Shown: positions 1,702 through 32,442 of the stretch, piece after piece
Position numbering within the stretch: the stretch's first letter is position 1
How the letters are laid out: each line of letters opens with the position of its first letter
Source: an uncultured Bacteroidales bacterium
GTDB lineage: Bacteria > Bacteroidota > Bacteroidia > Bacteroidales > Paludibacteraceae
Reading direction: 5' to 3'
DNA length: 32,442 nucleotides
Assembly (NCBI GenBank): GCA_944321155.1
Contig: CALUKG010000014.1
Coordinates: 1 to 32,442, forward strand
Translations under genes and position numbers: made by a program
Notes under the pieces: model-generated
The model's input: the letters and a program-made list of their open reading frames with translations, nothing else
What the model was told of the DNA's origin: nothing
Database searches by the model: none

Positions 1702-3093
1702 TCATTGAATCCCACCTCCCAAAGCGTGATAAAGATTTACAACCCCTTGTATCTCATTGAAACGATCTTGTACTTCAGTCAGTTCTGCCTGCAAAAGATT
1801 CTGCTGGGCAATAAGCACTTCCAAATAATTGGTTGTACCATATTCCATGAGCAGCTCTGTGTCGTTCAAGGCAGAACGCAAAGATTGAATCTGCTGTTTG
1901 TCAAGAACCAGACGCTGCTGTGCCGTTTGCCATTGTGACAATGCATCATTGACCTCGACACCCGCATCAAGTATAGATTGCTGGAACAGCAAAAGCGCTT
2001 CTTCCTGCTGTGCCTTGCTGATTTTCAAACGCGCCATATTGGTGCCTCTGTTGAACAAAGGCTGTACCAGCGAAGCTACTGCATTCAGCAACCAACCACC
2101 AGGATTAACAATGACTCCGCCTCCACTATTGGTCCATCCAGCCAATCCACTGAGCGAGATTGACGGGTAGAAAGCCGAATATGCCTCGTTCGTTGCATAA
2201 AAGGCCTGCGCCAAGGCCCATTCCGCCTGCTGAACATCGGGACGATTGCGCAACAACTGTAAAGGAACTCCTGTAGAAATCTGAGCATCAAATACTTGTT
2301 CAGCTAATGAAGTGCGCATAATAGGTCCCGGTACATCTCCTAAAAGTGCACACAAAGAATTTTCAAGAGTTTGAATCTGCTGTTTCAATGTTAAAACAGA
2401 TGCCTCAACATTCAACTTATTCGCCTTTGCTTGTGCAATAGCCACTTGGTCAACAGTACCATATTCCTTCAGCATTTCAAGCGTATTCACATAGTCTGAC
2501 CAATTTTCAAGCGTTTGTTCGCTTACCCTCAATTGTTCGTCCAACATCAACAAAGAATAATAGCTATTGGCAATCGTTGCTATCAGTTGCGTGCGTACCG
2601 CTTGTGAATAAGCCTGCGTTTGCATGAGAGCAGCCTTTGCCCCTTTTTGTGCATTACGCAACTTGCCAAACAGGTCAATCTCCCAACTTGCCGAAGCAGC
2701 CAACGAATAAGTCATCGATGGCTCTACCCCATTGAATGAAGAAATTGCACCATCTGGTGTAAAAGACACGGAAGGCAAATAAGCCAATTTGGAAGCCGTC
2801 AATGTAGCTTCAGCCTCCTGTACCTTCAAATAGGCCACCCTTACATCCGTATTATTATCCAAACCTCTCTGAATCAAGCCTTGCAGCAGAGAATCCGTAA
2901 AAAGAACCTTCCAAGAAATTGAAGCCATGGAAGTAGAATCATCCGATAGAACCGGTTGACGGAAAATACTGTCACTCACCTGCACATCGGGGCGTTTATA
3001 CGAACTATAGATACGGCATCCGGCCAACAGCGGCATCAGTAACAAAAGGGCCAATATGTATTTTATCATTGATTTCATAAACAACATCTTCAT
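1702..3093 (-). CDS. RND efflux outer-membrane factor, TolC/OprM (NodT) family lipoprotein
   Basis: This 463-residue protein has the usual length of NodT-type outer-membrane factors. The N-terminus has a hydrophobic leader ending in the lipobox LAGC with Cys at residue 26. YKRPDV follows shortly after, as in OprM-type proteins. Two tandem outer-membrane-efflux repeats follow, rich in Ala/Gln/Leu helices, with the family hallmark RPDVQQAEWALAQAFYATN around residues 283-301. It forms the trimeric channel-tunnel of the pump encoded upstream. Its ATG overlaps the RND permease stop as ATGA (3090-3093), so the two are translationally coupled. In-frame ATGs at residues 6 and 9 could be the real start of the lipoprotein signal. 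Substrate cannot be deduced. Confidence 0.92.
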   Translation of the reverse strand: MKMLFMKSMIKYILALLLLMPLLAGCRIYSSYKRPDVQVSDSIFRQPVLSDDSTSMASISWKVLFTDSLLQGLIQRGLDNNTDVRVAYLKVQEAEATLTASKLAYLPSVSFTPDGAISSFNGVEPSMTYSLAASASWEIDLFGKLRNAQKGAKAALMQTQAYSQAVRTQLIATIANSYYSLLMLDEQLRVSEQTLENWSDYVNTLEMLKEYGTVDQVAIAQAKANKLNVEASVLTLKQQIQTLENSLCALLGDVPGPIMRTSLAEQVFDAQISTGVPLQLLRNRPDVQQAEWALAQAFYATNEAYSAFYPSISLSGLAGWTNSGGGVIVNPGGWLLNAVASLVQPLFNRGTNMARLKISKAQQEEALLLFQQSILDAGVEVNDALSQWQTAQQRLVLDKQQIQSLRSALNDTELLMEYGTTNYLEVLIAQQNLLQAELTEVQDRFNEIQGVVNLYHALGGGIQ

Positions 3094-6000
3094 CGCTTGT
3101 TCAACAAAGTCAAATCACGTTTAGGCATTACGCGCTCCTGTATTGTCTGGAACACTATGAACCAAACCGGCACCACAAACAATAAGGCAATTGTACCGAT
3201 AAGCATACCTCCCACTGTGCCCACACCCAAAGATATATTACCATTGGCACCTACACCTGTAGCAAACATCATTGGCAGCAGACCAAAAATCATGGTCAAG
3301 GATGTCATCAAAATAGGACGCAAACGCACCTTGGCTGCCGACATGGCAGCTTGGGCTATGCTCATGCCTTGCTTACGGCGCTCTGAAGCATATTCCGTCA
3401 AGAGGATGGCCGTTTTTGCCAACAGACCAATCAACATGATAAGTCCTGTCTGCATGTATATATTGTTTTCCAAGCCGAATATCTGGGCAAACAGGAAGCT
3501 ACCAGCCAATCCAAATGGCACAGAAAGAATCACTGCCAAAGGAATAAATATACTTTCATACAAGGCACAAAGAATCAGATAGATGAACACCACGCAAATG
3601 ATAAAGACCAGTGTTGCCGTATTTTCCGTTTCCGCCTCTTCGCGCGACATACCTCCAAACTCAAAACCATAACCGGCAGGAAGCACCTCACTTGCCACCT
3701 CACGTATAGCCTGAATAGCCTGACCGGAACTATAACCTTGTGCCGGCACACCATTGATGGCAATAGCCGAGAACAGGTTGAAGCGCGTGAGCGATTCAGC
3801 TCCATAGATACGTGTCAGCTTCAGGTATTGCCCAACTGGCGACATCTCTCCATCAGCATTGCGCACAAACATATTATTGAGCGACTCCGTGTTAAGACGG
3901 AACTCTGGCGCCGCCTGCACCATCACCCTATATAACTTGGAGAAACGGTTCATGTTGGAGGAATAACTACCACCGATATATCCAGAAAGAACACTCAGCA
4001 CATCAGCCGGAGAAACTCCATTCCGCTTACACAACGCAGCATCGACTTCCACCAGATATTGCGGATATTTCGTATCGAAAGATGTATAGGCTCTGGAAAT
4101 TTCAGGCCGTTCGTTCAAAGCCTCCACCATATTGTTCGTATAAGTCAGCAAGTCTTCTATGTTACCACCTTTCTGATCCTGCACATAGAGCTGGAATCCG
4201 TTACTAACACCATAGCCAGGAATCATCGGTTGGGCAAATGCCTGTATCTTAGCCCCTTTGATATGGTCAGTATATTGATAAATCTTTTCGATAATGGTAT
4301 TGACTTCATGTTCCTTGCCTTCACGTTCATCCCAAGGTTTGAGTCTGATGATATATTGTCCATTGGAGGAACCTTGTCCGTTGATAATACTATTTCCCGT
4401 AAGTTTGGAATAGATAAGTATCTCATCAATTCGTTTAATTGCCACTTCCACCTCATCCATGACTGTCTGCGTTTCATGCAAACTGCTTCCCGGAGGGGTC
4501 TGTACATTCATGAAAATGGTTCCCATATCCTCTTCCGGCACAAGACCTGTCTTAGTGGTTCTCATCAACAGAAACAAACCTACACAAGCCAATACCGTAA
4601 AGGCCACTCCCAACCAACGGCGTTTCATAAAGAAAAAGACACCCACTTTGTATTTGTTGACCAAACGATGGAATGCCACATCAAAAGCCACATGGAAACG
4701 GGACGAGAAAGACATCTTTCCATTACTGTCTGCACCTTGGTGGGGCGTCATGATGAGTGCACACAAGGCAGGGCTGAGCGTCAAAGCATTCAGCGCAGAA
4801 ATGGCCACTGCAACCGCCATTGTGAGTCCGAACTGCGTATAGAAAGTCCCCGTCGTACCACCAATGAAACACACGGGAATAAACACTGCCATGAAAACAA
4901 AGGTAGTAGAAATAAGCGCAGAAGTAATATTTCCCATGGCATCAATGGTGGCCAAATAAGGAGATTTGTATCCTTCATCAAATTTTGCCTGTACCGCCTC
5001 AACCACTACGATAGCATCATCGACAACCGTACCAATGACCAGCACCAAAGCAAAAAGCGTAAGCATGTTCAAGCTGAATCCTACAGCATAGAGGAAAGCA
5101 AAGGTACCTATAAGACTCACAATAATGGAAATGGCAGGAATAAACGTTGAGCGCATACTCTGCAAGAACACATATACCACCAGAACCACCAAAAGTATAG
5201 CTTCCAACAATGTTTTCACTACGTTTTTGATGGATGCGTCCAAGAAATCCTTTGAGCTCATCAAGTCAACGATTTCTACCCCCTTCGGAAGCGTCGGCTT
5301 GATAGCCTCCACCTCCTTATCGATCAACTTGATGATTTCATTGGCATTTGAACCAGAAGTCTGGGCAATCATACAGCTTGTTCCCGGCAAGCCATTTACT
5401 TCACCAATATACATATAACTAACCTCTCCCAGTTCAATCTTGGCCACATCCTTCAAACGTAGTACTTCACCTCCAGGGAGCGAGCGTATGACCAGATTTT
5501 CATAATCAACTTCTTCCTCATAGCGTCCCCTATACTTCAGTACGTATTCAAAAGTGTTCTCTGAGTTAGCGCCCAACGTTCCTGTAGGCGCCTCTATATT
5601 TTGTTCAGCCAAAACTGTAGAAATATCACTTGGTACAAGTCCATATTCCGCCATTTTATGCGGATCGAGCCATATACGCAAAGAATAATCACCCCCGAAA
5701 ACATTAATCTCACCAATACCAGGAATACGCGAGAGACGCGGCTCAATATTGATTTTCATGTAGTTGGTGAGAAATGCCTTGTCAAACGAGCCGTCAGGAC
5801 TATAAATTGCCAATGACTTAATGTTACTCGTCTGCCTTTTGCGCACTGTAATACCGGTCTTTGTCACCTCTGCCGGCAAAAGCCCCTGTGCCGTTGCTAT
5901 ACGGTTTTGTACATTGACCATCGCCATATCAGGGTCTGTGCCTTGCCGGAAATAGACCGTTATACTAGCTGACCCCGTATTGGTTGCCGTAGAGGTCATA

Positions 6001-6233
6001 TAAGCCATATTTTCCACACCATTGATAGCTTCTTCCAACGGCACTACCACACTTTTCATCACCGTTTCCGCATTGGCACCCGTATAAGTAGCTGAAACCC
6101 TAACGGTAGGCGGAGCAATCTCGGGAAACTGTTCTACAGGCAATTGTGTCAATCCAATCAAGCCTATGATGAGAATAATAACAGAAATTACCCCCGCAAA
6201 AATGGGTCTGTCTATAAATGTCTTTATCGTCAT
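3090..6233 (-). CDS. RND multidrug efflux permease, AcrB/HAE1 family
   Basis: This 1047-residue inner-membrane transporter has full family length. The N-terminus reads FIDRPIFAGVISVIILIIG, as in AcrB. The proton-relay acidic pair is present as VDDAIVVVEA (Asp405-Asp406) in TM4. The TM10 lysine is Lys940 in LLAKTAILLTEYA, at AcrB numbering. The porter-domain signature GLVPEEDMGT is present. It should export hydrophobic or amphiphilic compounds from the periplasm using proton motive force. It is encoded between the membrane-fusion protein (6-nt gap) and the outer-membrane factor (4-nt overlap), giving a complete tripartite operon. A large antisense reading frame at 4059-5150 is a shadow. Confidence 0.96.
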   Translation of the reverse strand: MTIKTFIDRPIFAGVISVIILIIGLIGLTQLPVEQFPEIAPPTVRVSATYTGANAETVMKSVVVPLEEAINGVENMAYMTSTATNTGSASITVYFRQGTDPDMAMVNVQNRIATAQGLLPAEVTKTGITVRKRQTSNIKSLAIYSPDGSFDKAFLTNYMKINIEPRLSRIPGIGEINVFGGDYSLRIWLDPHKMAEYGLVPSDISTVLAEQNIEAPTGTLGANSENTFEYVLKYRGRYEEEVDYENLVIRSLPGGEVLRLKDVAKIELGEVSYMYIGEVNGLPGTSCMIAQTSGSNANEIIKLIDKEVEAIKPTLPKGVEIVDLMSSKDFLDASIKNVVKTLLEAILLVVLVVYVFLQSMRSTFIPAISIIVSLIGTFAFLYAVGFSLNMLTLFALVLVIGTVVDDAIVVVEAVQAKFDEGYKSPYLATIDAMGNITSALISTTFVFMAVFIPVCFIGGTTGTFYTQFGLTMAVAVAISALNALTLSPALCALIMTPHQGADSNGKMSFSSRFHVAFDVAFHRLVNKYKVGVFFFMKRRWLGVAFTVLACVGLFLLMRTTKTGLVPEEDMGTIFMNVQTPPGSSLHETQTVMDEVEVAIKRIDEILIYSKLTGNSIINGQGSSNGQYIIRLKPWDEREGKEHEVNTIIEKIYQYTDHIKGAKIQAFAQPMIPGYGVSNGFQLYVQDQKGGNIEDLLTYTNNMVEALNERPEISRAYTSFDTKYPQYLVEVDAALCKRNGVSPADVLSVLSGYIGGSYSSNMNRFSKLYRVMVQAAPEFRLNTESLNNMFVRNADGEMSPVGQYLKLTRIYGAESLTRFNLFSAIAINGVPAQGYSSGQAIQAIREVASEVLPAGYGFEFGGMSREEAETENTATLVFIICVVFIYLILCALYESIFIPLAVILSVPFGLAGSFLFAQIFGLENNIYMQTGLIMLIGLLAKTAILLTEYASERRKQGMSIAQAAMSAAKVRLRPILMTSLTMIFGLLPMMFATGVGANGNISLGVGTVGGMLIGTIALLFVVPVWFIVFQTIQERVMPKRDLTLLNKR

Positions 6234-6239
6234 TGTCTC

Positions 6240-7334
6240 TTACTCCTGATTCGTTCTTACCCAAACACTATCTCTCAACAATCCAGCCCCTTCGGCTATC
6301 AAGGTATCGCCTATTTCCAATCCGGATTCCACAATGTAATCCTGACCATTATTCAGCTTGAAGACCTCAATTTCAGTAGATTGTGTATAACCGCCTATCA
6401 CTTTATAGACAAAGGTCTTGTTCTGAATTTCATACGTGGCTTCTTGCGGAATGATGATTACACCTTGACGATTGGTTGGTAAAATAACCGTACCATGTCC
6501 TCCATTTCTGAGCCATCCGTCAGGATTAGGAAAAACTGCCCTCAACACCACAGCACCCGTTGAAGCATCAACCGTTCCACTAATTGCATCAATGTGCCCT
6601 TTGTGCGGATAAACCTTTCCATTGCTAAGTTTGAATTCAACTGACGGCATTTCCTTCAAAGCCTTTTCCAGCGAGCCATACAATTGCATTAAATCAAGAA
6701 TCTGTGTTTCCGTGAGCGAAAAATAAGCGTAAATCTCACTATCATCAGCCACAGACACCAATGGCTCTGTAATCGTACTGCTCACCAAAGCCCCCGCCCT
6801 ATATGGAATCATGCTGGCCACACCATCGACCGGACTTTTAATCTCCGTATAAGACAAATCATTGCGTGCATTTATTTCCTGCGCCTTTGCTTGCGCCAAT
6901 TCAGCCTCTGCTTCCGCCAAGGAATTGAGTGCCGTCTGTAAATCAAAAAGCGAAACCACTTTTCTGTCATACAAAGCCTGCTTGCTCTCTGCTGTGAGTT
7001 TCACCGTTTCCAATTTGGCTTGTGCAGTCTTCACATTGGCCACAGCCGTTTCCAATGCTGCCTTATAAGGCACTTGGTCTATAACAAAGAGCAACTGTCC
7101 CCTTTTTACATGCGCTCCTTCGTTAATGCAAATGTCCGTAATGACTCCGCTCACTTGAGGCCTTATGTCCACATATTGTTTTCCGGCTATATTTGCTGTA
7201 TAATTAGAGTAGAGCACACAACTGGAAGTATCAATTACCAATGTGTTGTAATAGGATGCCTGTTTTTGCTGGTCAGCATTCTGGCATGCCACCAGCAACA
7301 CACAAGCACATAATGTTCCAATCAGTCTTTTCAT
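6240..7334 (-). CDS. RND efflux membrane-fusion (periplasmic adaptor) lipoprotein
   Basis: This 364-residue adaptor begins with a lipoprotein signal (lipobox LVAC, Cys17). It shows the HlyD/AcrA order of domains. A biotinyl-lipoyl half motif comes first (IRPQVSGVITDICINEGAHV, then KRGQLLFVID). An alpha-helical hairpin rich in Ala/Lys/Glu follows (about residues 85-145). The second lipoyl half is IKSPVDGVAS, and a beta-barrel with DASTGAVVLRAVFPNPDGWL comes last. It bridges the permease and the outer-membrane channel. As first gene of the operon it sits directly downstream of a TAGCTTTG promoter and of the direct-repeat operator shared with the divergent sensor kinase. Regulation by that two-component system is therefore likely, though inferred. 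Confidence 0.93.
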   Translation of the reverse strand: MKRLIGTLCACVLLVACQNADQQKQASYYNTLVIDTSSCVLYSNYTANIAGKQYVDIRPQVSGVITDICINEGAHVKRGQLLFVIDQVPYKAALETAVANVKTAQAKLETVKLTAESKQALYDRKVVSLFDLQTALNSLAEAEAELAQAKAQEINARNDLSYTEIKSPVDGVASMIPYRAGALVSSTITEPLVSVADDSEIYAYFSLTETQILDLMQLYGSLEKALKEMPSVEFKLSNGKVYPHKGHIDAISGTVDASTGAVVLRAVFPNPDGWLRNGGHGTVILPTNRQGVIIIPQEATYEIQNKTFVYKVIGGYTQSTEIEVFKLNNGQDYIVESGLEIGDTLIAEGAGLLRDSVWVRTNQE

Positions 7335-7390: not shown

Positions 7391-7426
7391 AAGTGTTGAC
7401 CAACGACAGAAAAGCGTTGACCAATG
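7391..7426. promoter_or_regulatory. Direct-repeat operator, probable LytTR-regulator binding site
   Basis: AAGTGTTGACCAACG (7391-7405) and AAGCGTTGACCAATG (7412-7426) match at 13 of 15 positions, with a period of exactly 21 bp (two helical turns). LytTR-domain regulators generally bind pairs of direct repeats spaced like this. The site lies between the divergent efflux and sensor-kinase promoters, next to the efflux -33 element. Assignment to the neighbouring regulator is inference. Confidence 0.6.
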
Positions 7427-7440
7427 CAAAACACATTTTA

Positions 7441-7470
7441 TTGTCAAAACACTTTTATCCATTATTTTTG
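7441..7470 (+). promoter_or_regulatory. Promoter of the sensor kinase operon
   Basis: TTG (7441-7443), 19 nt, TATTTTTG (7463-7470) fits the Bacteroidetes consensus. The kinase ATG is at 7475, only 4 nt after the box, so transcription from here would give a leaderless or nearly leaderless mRNA. Confidence 0.55.
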
Positions 7471-7474
7471 CATT

Positions 7475-8476
7475 ATGAAACAGAAGCAAATTGCTTTATA
7501 TATTGATCTGCTTTTTTGCCTTGTCATCCTTCCGATAGTAATTACATTGGTTCCGGTTGAGAAATGGATTATACACCACACGGCATTTATGATAGCACTG
7601 ATTGTCTATCTGTACAGCCTATATGCAATATACCGGATAAGCAATTTACCTTCCCTTTTCATGCAGAAAAAATATGTAAAGGCTGTTCTGATTATTGTCT
7701 GTCTGTTGCTTGTTACGGAACTGATGAGCCAATATCCATTGCCGGAGGCACCATCTGCCAAAATATATGAAGCCCGAAAACATTTGCGCATGCAAACTGT
7801 ATGGTTTTTCTTTTTGGTAGTAACGGGCTTTACACTTGCCATTGAACTGGTATTCGAGTTGTTCAAACAGATATTGCAAAAACACGAAATAGAAGCTGAG
7901 AAAAACAAGGCTGAACTAGCTCTCTACAAATCACAGATTGACCCGCACTTCCTATTTAATACACTGAACTCCCTATATGGTTTGGTCATTAGCCATTCCG
8001 AACATACGGAATCAGCCTTCATTAAGTTTTCCGATATTCTGAAATACATGTACAGTCAAGCTGACTCAGATACAATCGACATCAAAAACGAGATAAGCTA
8101 CATACAACAATATGTTGACTTACAGAAACTCCGATTGAACCACCATACCCAAGTGCAAATAAGCAGCTCTGTAGAAGACGAATATATACAGATTGCGCCA
8201 ATGATACTTATCACCTTCATTGAAAATGCGTTCAAATATGGTACTTCTTCTGATGAAGACTGTCAGATAGACATCCGCCTAAATGAATCAGGCGGCATTG
8301 TTCACTTTGAAGTCAAAAACGATATTATGCGCAAGCGCAAAGAGCATACACCGGCTGTGGGTATTGCCAACTGCAAGAAACGGCTTGAACTACTCTATCC
8401 GGACAAACATCATCTGAGTACGAGCAACAAAGGACAGCAATTCATTGTTACATTGACTTTAGACTTACGTCCATGA
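7475..8476 (+). CDS. LytS/YpdA-type sensor histidine kinase
   Basis: This 333-residue membrane kinase has about four N-terminal transmembrane helices (roughly residues 8-26, 36-54, 67-83 and 107-128), which probably sense a membrane or envelope signal. A short coiled linker follows, then the His_kinase (PF06580-type) box SQIDPHFLFNTLNSLYGL with phospho-acceptor His158. The ATPase N-box is IENAFKYG (Asn251), and the C-terminal box is AVGIANCKKRLELLYP. The start at ATG 7475 is chosen over an in-frame ATG at 7424, because the latter lies upstream of the promoter and inside the operator. The stop overlaps the response-regulator start as ATGA (8473-8476), so the two are coupled. Its partner is broken, so signalling through this pair is probably lost in this genome. 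Confidence 0.9.
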   Translation: MKQKQIALYIDLLFCLVILPIVITLVPVEKWIIHHTAFMIALIVYLYSLYAIYRISNLPSLFMQKKYVKAVLIIVCLLLVTELMSQYPLPEAPSAKIYEARKHLRMQTVWFFFLVVTGFTLAIELVFELFKQILQKHEIEAEKNKAELALYKSQIDPHFLFNTLNSLYGLVISHSEHTESAFIKFSDILKYMYSQADSDTIDIKNEISYIQQYVDLQKLRLNHHTQVQISSSVEDEYIQIAPMILITFIENAFKYGTSSDEDCQIDIRLNESGGIVHFEVKNDIMRKRKEHTPAVGIANCKKRLELLYPDKHHLSTSNKGQQFIVTLTLDLRP

Positions 8477-9350
8477 ACATACGCAGTATAGCCATAGATG
8501 ACGAACCAATTGCATTGAGCATTATCAATAATTTCTGCAACAGGAAAGGATGCATCAACTTATCCACCTATTGCGAACCACGCATCGGTTTGGAGGCCAT
8601 AGAACGGGAAAAACCTGATTTGGTTTTTCTTGACATAGAAATGAACAGCATAAGCGGTTTGGATTTAGCCAAACGTTTGCCCAAGGAATGTGCACTGATA
8701 TTTACCACGGCCCATGCACAGTTTGCGTTGGAAGGATTTAACCTCAACGCAATAGACTATCTGCACAAGCCATTCTCATACGAGCGATTTGAACAGGCTG
8801 TGGAAAAAGCACTCCGTTATCTGCAACCCAAAGAAACAGGCAACGATGCTTTAGTAGTCAAGCAAGAATATAACAATGTCATTATTCCACTCAATGACAT
8901 TCTGTATCTGGAGGCAATGGAAAACTACACGAAGATATATCGCCTAAGCGGCAACTATATACTTTCGCGGACCAATTTAACCCAAATCGGTCATTAGAGG
9001 CTGATTATTTGTGGTCTTGATTGTAATGCGCTGATAAACAATGATTTAAAATCTCATTTTTCTAATGACCGCCATTAGAAAATCAAGATTACAATATATT
9101 CATTTTCAATGCCTTACAATCAAGACCACGAAAATTGGATATTCTAACGACCGATTTGGGTTTAAAAAGTCTGCAACAGGCACTGCCTACAGAAAGTTTT
9201 ATACGGATACACAAGTCATTTATTGTTCCCATCAGCAAAATAAGCAGTTATCGGAATAACCAACTGCTCTTAAACAACAATACAGCATTACCTATAGGAA
9301 GGACGTATCTGAATGCCGTATTGCAAATTATCAGACAAAAGGCTACATAA
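8473..9350 (+). pseudogene. LytTR-family response regulator, interrupted by a MITE
   Basis: The N-terminal receiver domain is intact: IDDEP at residues 8-12, phospho-acceptor Asp54 in LVFLDIEM, the Thr of FTTAHA, and Lys of HKPF. A LytTR DNA-binding domain starts near residue 125 (IIPLNDILYLEAMENYTKIY). The frame stops at TAG 8995-8997 inside an inserted element. The rest of the LytTR domain resumes after it in another frame (LKSLQQALPTESFIRIHKSF to the stop at 9350). Removing the 182-bp element and one TTA copy (185 bp) restores one uninterrupted 230-residue regulator reading RTNLKSLQQAL. The residual product would have a receiver but only the start of the DNA-binding domain. The 3' end overlaps the convergent cardiolipin synthase gene by 8 bp. 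Confidence 0.92.
8980..9161. mobile_element. 182-bp MITE-like element with bipartite terminal inverted repeats
   Basis: The ends are ACCCAAATCGGTCATTAGA (8980-8998) and TCTAACGACCGATTTGGGT (9143-9161), 18 of 19 complementary. A second, perfect inverted pair lies inside: GTGGTCTTGATTGTAA (9011-9026) and TTACAATCAAGACCAC (9114-9129). The centre, TCTAATGACCGCCATTAGA (9061-9079), carries the inner part of the terminal repeat in both orientations. Flanking TTA (8977-8979 and 9162-9164) is a 3-bp target duplication. There is no transposase, so mobility would have to come from an autonomous relative elsewhere. Ends in AC with a short duplication recall IS982-family elements, known in Bacteroides, but that assignment is from memory. 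The element introduces a stop and a frame change in the response regulator. Confidence 0.85.
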
Positions 9351-25768: not shown

Positions 25769-26320
25769 TTACGCTTCTGCTGGAGCTTCCTCTGATGCAG
25801 AAGCTTCTTCTGCTGGAGCTTCCAATTCTGCTTTTGCAGCGGCAGCCTTAGCTTCCAGCTCGGCAGCTTTCTTCTTGGCCAATTCTTCTGCTTTTGCCTT
25901 GTTTTGTGCTTGTTCCACTTCCAAACGAGCTTTTGCAGCAGCAACTTTTTCTGCAGCTAATTGCTCACGAGTCTTGGTCAAAGCATTTTCTTTTTCAGCT
26001 TTCCATGCAGCAAAGCGTTTTTCTGCTTCTGCTTCACTAAATGCGCCTTTCTTTACACCACCCATCAAATGTTTCATCAACAAAACACCTTCTCTTGAGA
26101 GGATATTACGGGTTGTGTCTGTTGGTTGTGCACCCACGCCTAACCAATACATGGCACGGTCAAAATTCAATTGAACAGTTGCAGGGTTAGTGTTAGGGTT
26201 ATAAGAACCAATACGTTCGATAAATTTGCCATCACGTGGCGCGCGGCTGTCAGCTACAACTATGTGATAATAAGCATAGGATTTGCGGCCATGACGAGCC
26301 AATCTGATTTTTACTGCCAT
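25769..26320 (-). CDS. rpsP: 30S ribosomal protein S16 with long C-terminal tail
   Basis: This 183-residue protein begins with the conserved S16 core (about 1-85): [40 protein letters not shown] and the GAQPTDT segment. The core is followed by a tail of about 100 residues of Ala/Glu/Lys, predicted as a charged helix or coiled coil and ending [10 protein letters not shown]16 is an assembly protein of the small subunit body. The E. coli protein is only about 80 residues long. Long tails occur in Bacteroidetes, but their function is not known to me. It has its own promoter and a strong terminator, so it is probably transcribed alone. Confidence 0.96.
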
Positions 26321-30320: not shown

Positions 30321-31658
30321 TTATCCTAGCATACTCATCAAGATACCAGCAGCTACAGCAGAACCGATCACACCTGCTACGTTTGGACCCATAGCATGCA
30401 TCAACAGGAAGTTACCTGGATCTGCTTCCTGGCCAACGGTTTGGGATACACGCGCTGCCATTGGAACAGCAGATACACCTGCAGAACCGATAAGCGGATT
30501 GATTTTTTCTTTTGAGAAGACGTTCATCAATTTAGCCAACAAAACGCCGCCCGCCGTTCCTAAACCGAAGGCCAAGATACCTATACACAGAATAGCAAGT
30601 GTCTTGAGGTTCAGGAAGGCGTCTGCCGTTGCAGTTGCACCAACTGATATACCCAACATTATAGTTGTGATATTCATCAACTCATTTTGAACTGTCTTGC
30701 TCAAACGTTCTACTACACCACATTCACGCATTAAGTTACCCAACATCAAGCAACCAATCAGAGGAGCTGCAGATGGCAACATCAGCGAAACAATCATGGT
30801 AACCAAAATTGGGAAAATCACTTTTTCCTTTTTTGATACAGAACGCAATTGTTTCATACGTATTTCACGTTCAGCCTTAGTTGTAAGAGCACGCATAATT
30901 GGCGGCTGAATTACTGGAACCAATGCCATATAAGAATATGCCGCTACAGCAATCGGACCAAGCAAATCTGGAGCCAATCGAGTTGTAAGGAAGATGGCAG
31001 TAGGGCCATCAGCACCACCTATAATACCGATTGAAGCTGCTTCGTTTGGCATGAATCCCAAAGCAATGGCCCCAAGATAGGTAGCAAAAATGCCCAACTG
31101 AGCTGCTGCACCAAGCAACAAACTTTTCGGATTAGCCAACAGAGGACCGAAGTCAGTCATCGCACCTACACCGATAAAGATAATACACGGATAAATGCCC
31201 AATTTAACACCGAGATACAAGTAGTCAATCAAACCAGCCCCTTTGGCAAACTCTTCCCAATGAACATGTCCACCCGCAAACAATTCAGGTGTATAAAGAC
31301 CAGCTCCAGGAAGGTTGGTCAATAACATACCAAATGCAATAGGCAATAACAACAATGGCTCGAACTGCTTCACAATAGCAAGGTAAAACAATACGCACGC
31401 TATTACTAACATGACGAGAATTCGCCAGTTTTCTGCAATCAGAGCAAATCCCGTACTGTTTACAAAGTCTGTAAGACTCTCGGAAATGTTCAATTGAGGC
31501 TCAATATATTCATCTGATTCTACACCATTACATGCATTGGCGCAAGCAGTCTGCTCTGTCTGTACTTCTGCGGTTGAATCTTCCGCCCATACAGTTCCTG
31601 CCATCAATGCACTAGCAGCAAAGGTGAGAACGAAACATAATAATCGTAGTGCTTTCAT
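30321..31658 (-). CDS. oadB: Na+-translocating decarboxylase beta subunit (OadB/MmdB family)
   Basis: This 445-residue inner-membrane protein decarboxylates carboxybiotin and pumps sodium ions out. Conserved family segments are [10 protein letters not shown] (214-223, carrying the essential Asp), [12 protein letters not shown] (about 166-177) and [17 protein letters not shown] (387-403). At least nine transmembrane helices are seen. The N-terminus is unusual: a signal-peptide-like segment (1-25, ending VWA) leads into an acidic stretch of about 50 residues with Cys39 and Cys43 before the first core helix. The partner carboxyltransferase is outside the window. In Bacteroidales these genes usually form methylmalonyl-CoA decarboxylase, so oxaloacetate as substrate is less likely. 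It starts 11 nt after the biotin carrier gene, behind AAAGGG. Confidence 0.93.
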
Positions 31659-31669
31659 TTTTTACCCTT

Positions 31670-32398
31670 TTATTCAATATCTACCAATACATCATCTTGC
31701 ATTACATTCTTGCCCACTTCAACATGAACAGCTTTAATGGTGCAATCGCGTTCAGCCATAATGCTGTTTTCCATCTTCATAGATTCCATGGTCAACAGCA
31801 CATCACCACGTTTAACAGCCTGGCCTGGTGTTACCAAGACTTTCATAATGCTTCCAGGAAGCGGAGCCTTGATACTTTCTGCCGATGCCTTTGGTGCTGG
31901 TTTTGCTACCGGTTGGGCAACAGGTTGCGAAACCGGAGCTGCTGCGGGTTGAGCAACAGTCTGAACCGATTCACTACCTTCTATCTCAATAAGCAAATCA
32001 TCCTGCATTACAGATTTACCTACGCTTACATGAATAGCTTTAACTACACCATCATATTCTGTCATAATGTTATTTTCCATCTTCATGGATTCCATCGTCA
32101 TAAGCACATCTCCACGTTTTACTTTCTGACCAACCTCAACAAGCACCTTCATGATGCTTCCTGGAAGAGGAGACTTAATACTTATTGCCTTTGTCGCTGT
32201 GGTTAGAGCACTTGCAACTGTTGGTGTTGCCACTTTACCGGCCTGCTTACGCAATGGCACATTGATTGTTTTCTTTTCACGTGCAATTTCAACAGTGAAA
32301 GGTGTGCCGTTAACTTCTATTTCGGCAACGTCTTGGTCTACGTCGTTAACGACTACATCGTATTTGCTACCATTAATGGTAAATTGGTATTTTTTCAT
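31670..32398 (-). CDS. Biotin carrier protein with two tandem biotinyl domains
   Basis: This 242-residue cytosolic protein carries CO2 from the carboxyltransferase to the membrane beta subunit. An N-terminal Bacteroidetes-type region (1-72, KYQFTINGSKYDVVV) precedes biotinyl domain 1 (73-140). A Pro/Ala/Gln/Val-rich linker (141-174) and biotinyl domain 2 (175-242) follow. Both domains have TMESMKMEN with biotin-acceptor lysines Lys106 and Lys208, and about 51 of 68 residues are identical between them. Residues 1-140 alone equal a normal single-domain carrier, so the second domain looks like a C-terminal duplication. The motif has Ser where Ala is usual (EAMKM). The gene precedes oadB by 11 nt, and its promoter lies outside the window. 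Confidence 0.94.
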   Translation of the reverse strand: MKKYQFTINGSKYDVVVNDVDQDVAEIEVNGTPFTVEIAREKKTINVPLRKQAGKVATPTVASALTTATKAISIKSPLPGSIMKVLVEVGQKVKRGDVLMTMESMKMENNIMTEYDGVVKAIHVSVGKSVMQDDLLIEIEGSESVQTVAQPAAAPVSQPVAQPVAKPAPKASAESIKAPLPGSIMKVLVTPGQAVKRGDVLLTMESMKMENSIMAERDCTIKAVHVEVGKNVMQDDVLVDIE

Positions 32399-32442
32399 GA
32401 GTTGATTTATCTGACTAAATTGTTAATTCCGTAAATTTTTGA

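Follow-up and report, generated by a model that had tools for sequence, protein, structure and literature searches.

A biotin carrier with two biotinyl domains at a sodium-pump decarboxylase locus of Paludibacteraceae

Lipoyl domains have served for the study of swinging-arm multiplicity, and biotin carriers are as a rule portrayed as having one arm. The carrier gene considered here, from an uncultured Paludibacteraceae bacterium, encodes two biotinyl domains in one chain, which raises the questions of whether the second arm is genuine, how old it is and how it might be used. The stretch of DNA analysed (the window) is the whole of contig C14 of genome G000, 32442 bases in length. We found that the two-arm form is real, old and common in Paludibacteraceae. 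We consider it likely that the protein is the gamma subunit of a Na+-translocating methylmalonyl-CoA decarboxylase, that its two biotinylated arms act redundantly and in parallel, and that the arrangement is an old, mostly vertically inherited trait.

Architecture and operon setting of the carrier

The carrier ORF (242 aa) occupies positions 31670–32398 of the minus strand, stop codon included, and its product resembles the MmdC/GcdC gamma subunit of Na+-translocating acyl-CoA decarboxylases. A β-rich predicted anchor at approximately residues 1–46 (32261–32398), common to single-domain carriers, precedes biotinyl domain 1 (approximately residues 74–141; 31974–32179; PF00364 match at 74–139), a Pro/Ala-rich inter-arm linker (approximately residues 142–174; 31877–31973) and biotinyl domain 2 (approximately residues 175–242; 31673–31876), all on the minus strand. 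Pfam Biotin_lipoyl (PF00364) matches the protein in two stretches with a total E value of 1e-33, and each domain is further supported by its AlphaFold2 model and by dN << dS. The biotin sites, Lys106 (codon 32081–32083) and Lys208 (codon 31775–31777), each lie within the motif ESMKMEN. The linker is predicted to be disordered from its composition and pLDDT, and 44% of its 34 residues are Ala or Pro. The ORF, the double PF00364 match and the linker composition thus bear out what the first-pass annotation had read from the DNA, two biotin sites joined by a Pro/Ala linker. From residue 1 onward the carrier aligns with single-domain carriers as well as with two-domain ones, and both lysines are invariant, within two complete ESMKMEN biotinyl domains, in 13/13 aligned two-domain orthologues.

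AlphaFold2, run on six sequences, gave two confident biotinyl barrels (pLDDT approximately 85–88 for domain 1 and 88–90 for domain 2) separated by disordered linkers, with pLDDT mostly below 50 in the inter-arm linker. The N-terminal β region was poorly predicted (pLDDT approximately 56), and its strands at residues 3–37 are of low confidence. Foldseek matches of the model are biotin carriers, such as that of P. horikoshii (5gu8), which aligns across 67 columns with an rmsd of 0.7.

As first annotated, the carrier lies directly upstream of oadB. The next gene (30321–31658, minus strand) encodes the carboxybiotin decarboxylase/Na+ pump beta subunit (TIGR01109, E = 1.7e-161; PF03977, E = 9.5e-166), and this neighbourhood is syntenic in relatives. 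Beyond the carrier start codon the contig continues for 44 bases only (32399–32442), and mmdA and oadG, which stand upstream of the carrier in relatives, are missing from the G000 assembly. Its sole MmdA-like gene is a 55% paralogue on contig C19 with its own adjacent single-domain carrier of 112 aa. Almost all two-domain relatives whose sequence extends far enough have the order mce-mmdA-oadG-carrier-oadB, G002 among them; in this order mce encodes an epimerase and the other products carry Carboxyl_trans (MmdA), OAD_gamma (OadG) and OAD_beta (OadB) domains. Single-domain relatives retain the same operon. Since this gene order is what a Na+-translocating methylmalonyl-CoA decarboxylase should have, we infer that enzyme here; methylmalonyl-CoA is the probable substrate, given the neighbouring epimerase and MmdA-type carboxyltransferase of relatives. 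With oadB as the only partner gene in the window, it is the relatives that place the carrier in one operon with alpha and delta subunits.

A strict rule that two arms occur only with an adjacent oadB was rejected on one exception: in G022 a two-domain carrier sits beside mmdA without adjacent oadG or oadB, and an oadB lies on another contig. In G128 (L134:2789-11146, minus strand) two complete decarboxylase gene sets follow each other head to tail; the carrier of one has two arms and that of the other has one, and the OadBs of the sets are of two different types.

No RNA families were found in the window. Among its other genes, named by eye, are one for a ribosomal protein S16-like product of 183 aa with a long Ala/Glu/Lys-rich C-terminal extension (25769–26320, minus strand), an RND efflux-like set of adaptor, pump and outer-membrane factor (1702–7334, minus strand) and, adjoining that set, a LytTR-type sensor kinase and regulator (7424–8997, plus strand).

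Distribution and age of the second domain

We surveyed 200 Paludibacteraceae genomes, 140 of which contained a carrier match at E ≤ 1e-18. The two-domain form is present in 56 of these 140 (approximately 40%) and in 15 of the 33 sampled genera, and was confirmed at loci L172 and L173; three genera (g2, g8 and g22) hold both single- and two-domain carriers. Outside the family we found three multi-domain carriers among 295 genomes across Bacteroidales, and the other listed carriers appear to have one domain. The three are a two-domain carrier of 248 aa in G405, one of 226 aa in G321, and a three-domain carrier of 364 aa in G392 (L243:4662-5753, plus strand, on G392:C1), with lysines K111, K220 and K330. 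The last of these has near-identical domains (85–89% DNA identity) and comes from a genome assembled as one contig of 4.3 Mb; its congeners G291 and G477 have one-domain carriers. The usual Bacteroidales carrier had been put at a single domain and 140–145 residues, and we find it single-domain at about 138–150 aa; a two-arm carrier is indeed unusual for the order. Its standing as an exception, which a two-domain majority among relatives would contradict, depends on rank: in the window's own genus each of the three genomes sampled has two domains, and the form is in the minority in the family and rare in the order (approximately 1%).

The two domains of the window carrier are 74% identical in protein over 66-residue windows, close to the figure of about 75% given at the outset, and 70.7% identical in DNA, with pS = 0.74; synonymous sites between the copies are thus near saturation. 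Because of these values the duplication cannot be called recent. The first-pass description of it as fairly recent has to be given up, since synonymous sites are near saturation and the duplication is shared across genera, by a relative with a 90%-identical carrier (G002) and by two-fifths of the matched family genomes. A false duplication introduced by assembly or annotation might have been suspected of a gene at a contig end whose upstream partners are missing. The present data refute it, and we give it practically no credence: the copies differ at nearly a third of DNA positions, and the same structure recurs in G002 and in dozens of independent assemblies. Between G000 and G002, domain 1 shows 26 synonymous changes to 1 non-synonymous, and domain 2 shows 13.7 to 2.3. 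Both domains are under strong purifying selection.

Built on only 66 columns, the tree of 134 domains has weak deep support and leaves most deep forks unresolved. In many clades first and second domains cluster mainly by position across species. In the window's genus the two fall near each other (SH-aLRT 82), for which reason that genus may have undergone gene conversion or an older duplication of its own. OadB sequences form two strongly separated types, and two-domain carriers go mostly with type A, the type found in the window. The single-domain carriers of genus g22 also belong to OadB type A. In AU tests, joining their domains to first domains was rejected (p = 0.0006) and joining them to second domains was not (p = 0.285), so these carriers most likely reflect a secondary loss of domain 1. 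With the other OadB type, a two-domain carrier is seen in G093 and also in G012, where the oadB gene is truncated; the copies are 83–89% identical in protein. In this OadB type the two-domain carriers, L165/L171 among them, lie within a group of single-domain ones, a position that marks a separate gain of the second domain, and the three-domain carrier of G392 is another, its congeners being single-domain. Two-arm carriers arose at least twice in Paludibacteraceae. A single origin of all multi-domain carriers was considered and rejected as the simplest reading, given the nesting of L165/L171 and the single-domain congeners of G392. At L162 (G001, of the window's genus) OadB and the carrier domains cluster with their counterparts in genus g15 and apart from those of G000/G002, which suggests that the operon was transferred between members of the family.

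Copy number is labile, as gains and losses inside genera and the one three-domain case show, and with single-domain relatives keeping an identical operon this could be taken to mean that in-frame repeat recombination adds and removes domains in a nearly neutral fashion, a second arm being tolerated without benefit. We think this unlikely. A useless copy is expected to decay or be deleted, whereas the two-domain lineages are old, with near-saturated synonymous sites, strong purifying selection on both domains and both lysine motifs invariant in all aligned orthologues.

Proposed working of two arms and its significance

In the reading that we favour, the carrier would work in the succinate-to-propionate pathway, as part of the Na+-translocating methylmalonyl-CoA decarboxylase. 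The N-terminal region would anchor it to the complex, and the two flexibly tethered biotinyl domains would each be biotinylated by the cell's biotin ligase (G000 has one gene of the BPL/LplA/LipB, biotin/lipoate-ligase, family). At the MmdA active sites the arms would pick up the carboxyl group of (S)-methylmalonyl-CoA and pass it on to OadB, which would use the decarboxylation of carboxybiotin to drive Na+ export. Biotinylation of both lysines and parallel use of the arms are thus part of the proposal. Redundant, parallel arms are favoured because the tandem lipoyl arms of pyruvate dehydrogenase E2 in E. coli are described as redundant and independent (PMC8421416). The first-pass suggestion that two arms could raise throughput is plausible. 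The second arm is not essential, since many relatives manage with a single arm and one arm has been lost in some lineages. The two-arm form would have been kept mostly vertically in much of Paludibacteraceae, lost in some lineages and regained in others.

The arms might instead divide the labour, one being specialised for OadB or MmdA or working with another enzyme, for example an acyl-CoA carboxylase. The composition of the two domains does differ at a few columns (for example +9 and +29 relative to the lysine), and their positional identity is kept in several clades. No column fully separates first from second domains, however, and the surroundings of the lysine are identical, which disfavours strict specialisation. 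The other MmdA-like enzyme of G000 has its own carrier beside it on C19, the carrier gene of relatives lies inside one decarboxylase operon, and the rest of that operon persists in genus g22 where one domain was lost. We regard a division of labour as very improbable, and the initial suggestion that one arm could serve another enzyme finds no support.

There is a further reading of the pattern, which we advance tentatively and hold to be somewhat doubtful: in membrane Na+-pump decarboxylases arm number may be adaptive and may have come under selection repeatedly, making it a biotin counterpart of lipoyl-arm multiplicity in 2-oxoacid dehydrogenases. It is prompted by the independent evolution of two- and three-arm forms, at least twice among Paludibacteraceae carriers, once in a different Bacteroidales family, where the form is a triple, and also in OadA. 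Carriers with one, two or three arms form a natural series that shares the same operon, and some of them occur together in a genus or side by side in a single genome (G128). This series allows a direct question, namely whether arm number limits flux through the decarboxylation-driven Na+ pump, an energy-conserving step of propionate-forming anaerobes.

Comparison with known systems

The window carrier shares with the MmdC/GcdC gamma subunits (NF047903, PRK06549) a predicted N-terminal anchor region, an Ala/Pro-rich linker, a biotinyl domain with its lysine in MKM, and a gene beside that for the beta subunit; known members have one biotinyl domain where it has two. It scores 138 bits against NF047903, the MmdC equivalog model, below the cut-off of 200 bits. 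We therefore claim homology and a gamma-subunit role, and do not claim the equivalog name. Domain, fold and enzyme class are already known, and the multi-arm gamma subunit appears to be the new part: a limited literature search found no reports of two- or three-domain gamma subunits, its sole mention of tandem biotinyl domains concerning OadA of Geobacter bemidjiensis (Gbem_1454), which has two biotin attachment domains and was noted as unlike sodium-pump homologues in this respect (PMC2996986).

Like the carrier, the two-domain OadA proteins of Geobacter, Treponema (L061) and G311 belong to a biotin-dependent decarboxylase and have their biotinyl domains in tandem. Theirs are fused to an HMGL/PYC_OADA carboxyltransferase, whereas those of the window form a separate carrier chain. 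The Treponema protein (L061:4582-6642, plus strand) is OadA-like with two C-terminal biotinyl domains, and the gene directly downstream has an OadB-like C-terminus. Similar loci occur in other Spirochaetales sequences (L041, L052, L068, L081, L082, L090, L094, L095 and L099), and we interpret the group as convergent tandem arms in the alpha subunit. The G311 protein (L249:2514-4661, minus strand) is an OadA/PycB-like product of 716 aa from Bacteroidales with two biotinyl domains.

Two further systems bear on the parallel-arm model. In pyruvate dehydrogenase E2 the same swinging-arm fold is repeated with flexible linkers, and the copies are 73% identical in E. coli; those arms carry lipoate and belong to the catalytic core chain, whereas the window carrier would bear biotin and belong to a membrane Na+ pump. 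In GcdC the N-terminal part is taken as an anchor and the Ala/Pro linker as flexible, with the biotinyl domain moving between GcdA and GcdB (PMC7145394; see also PMC8473912). The Gcd complex of C. symbiosum contains two different carriers, GcdC1 and GcdC2, in an arrangement of 4 GcdA : 2 GcdB : C1 : C2 : 2 GcdD (PMC7145394). That complex gains its second arm by a second gene, and a two-arm carrier would match its arm number with one chain.
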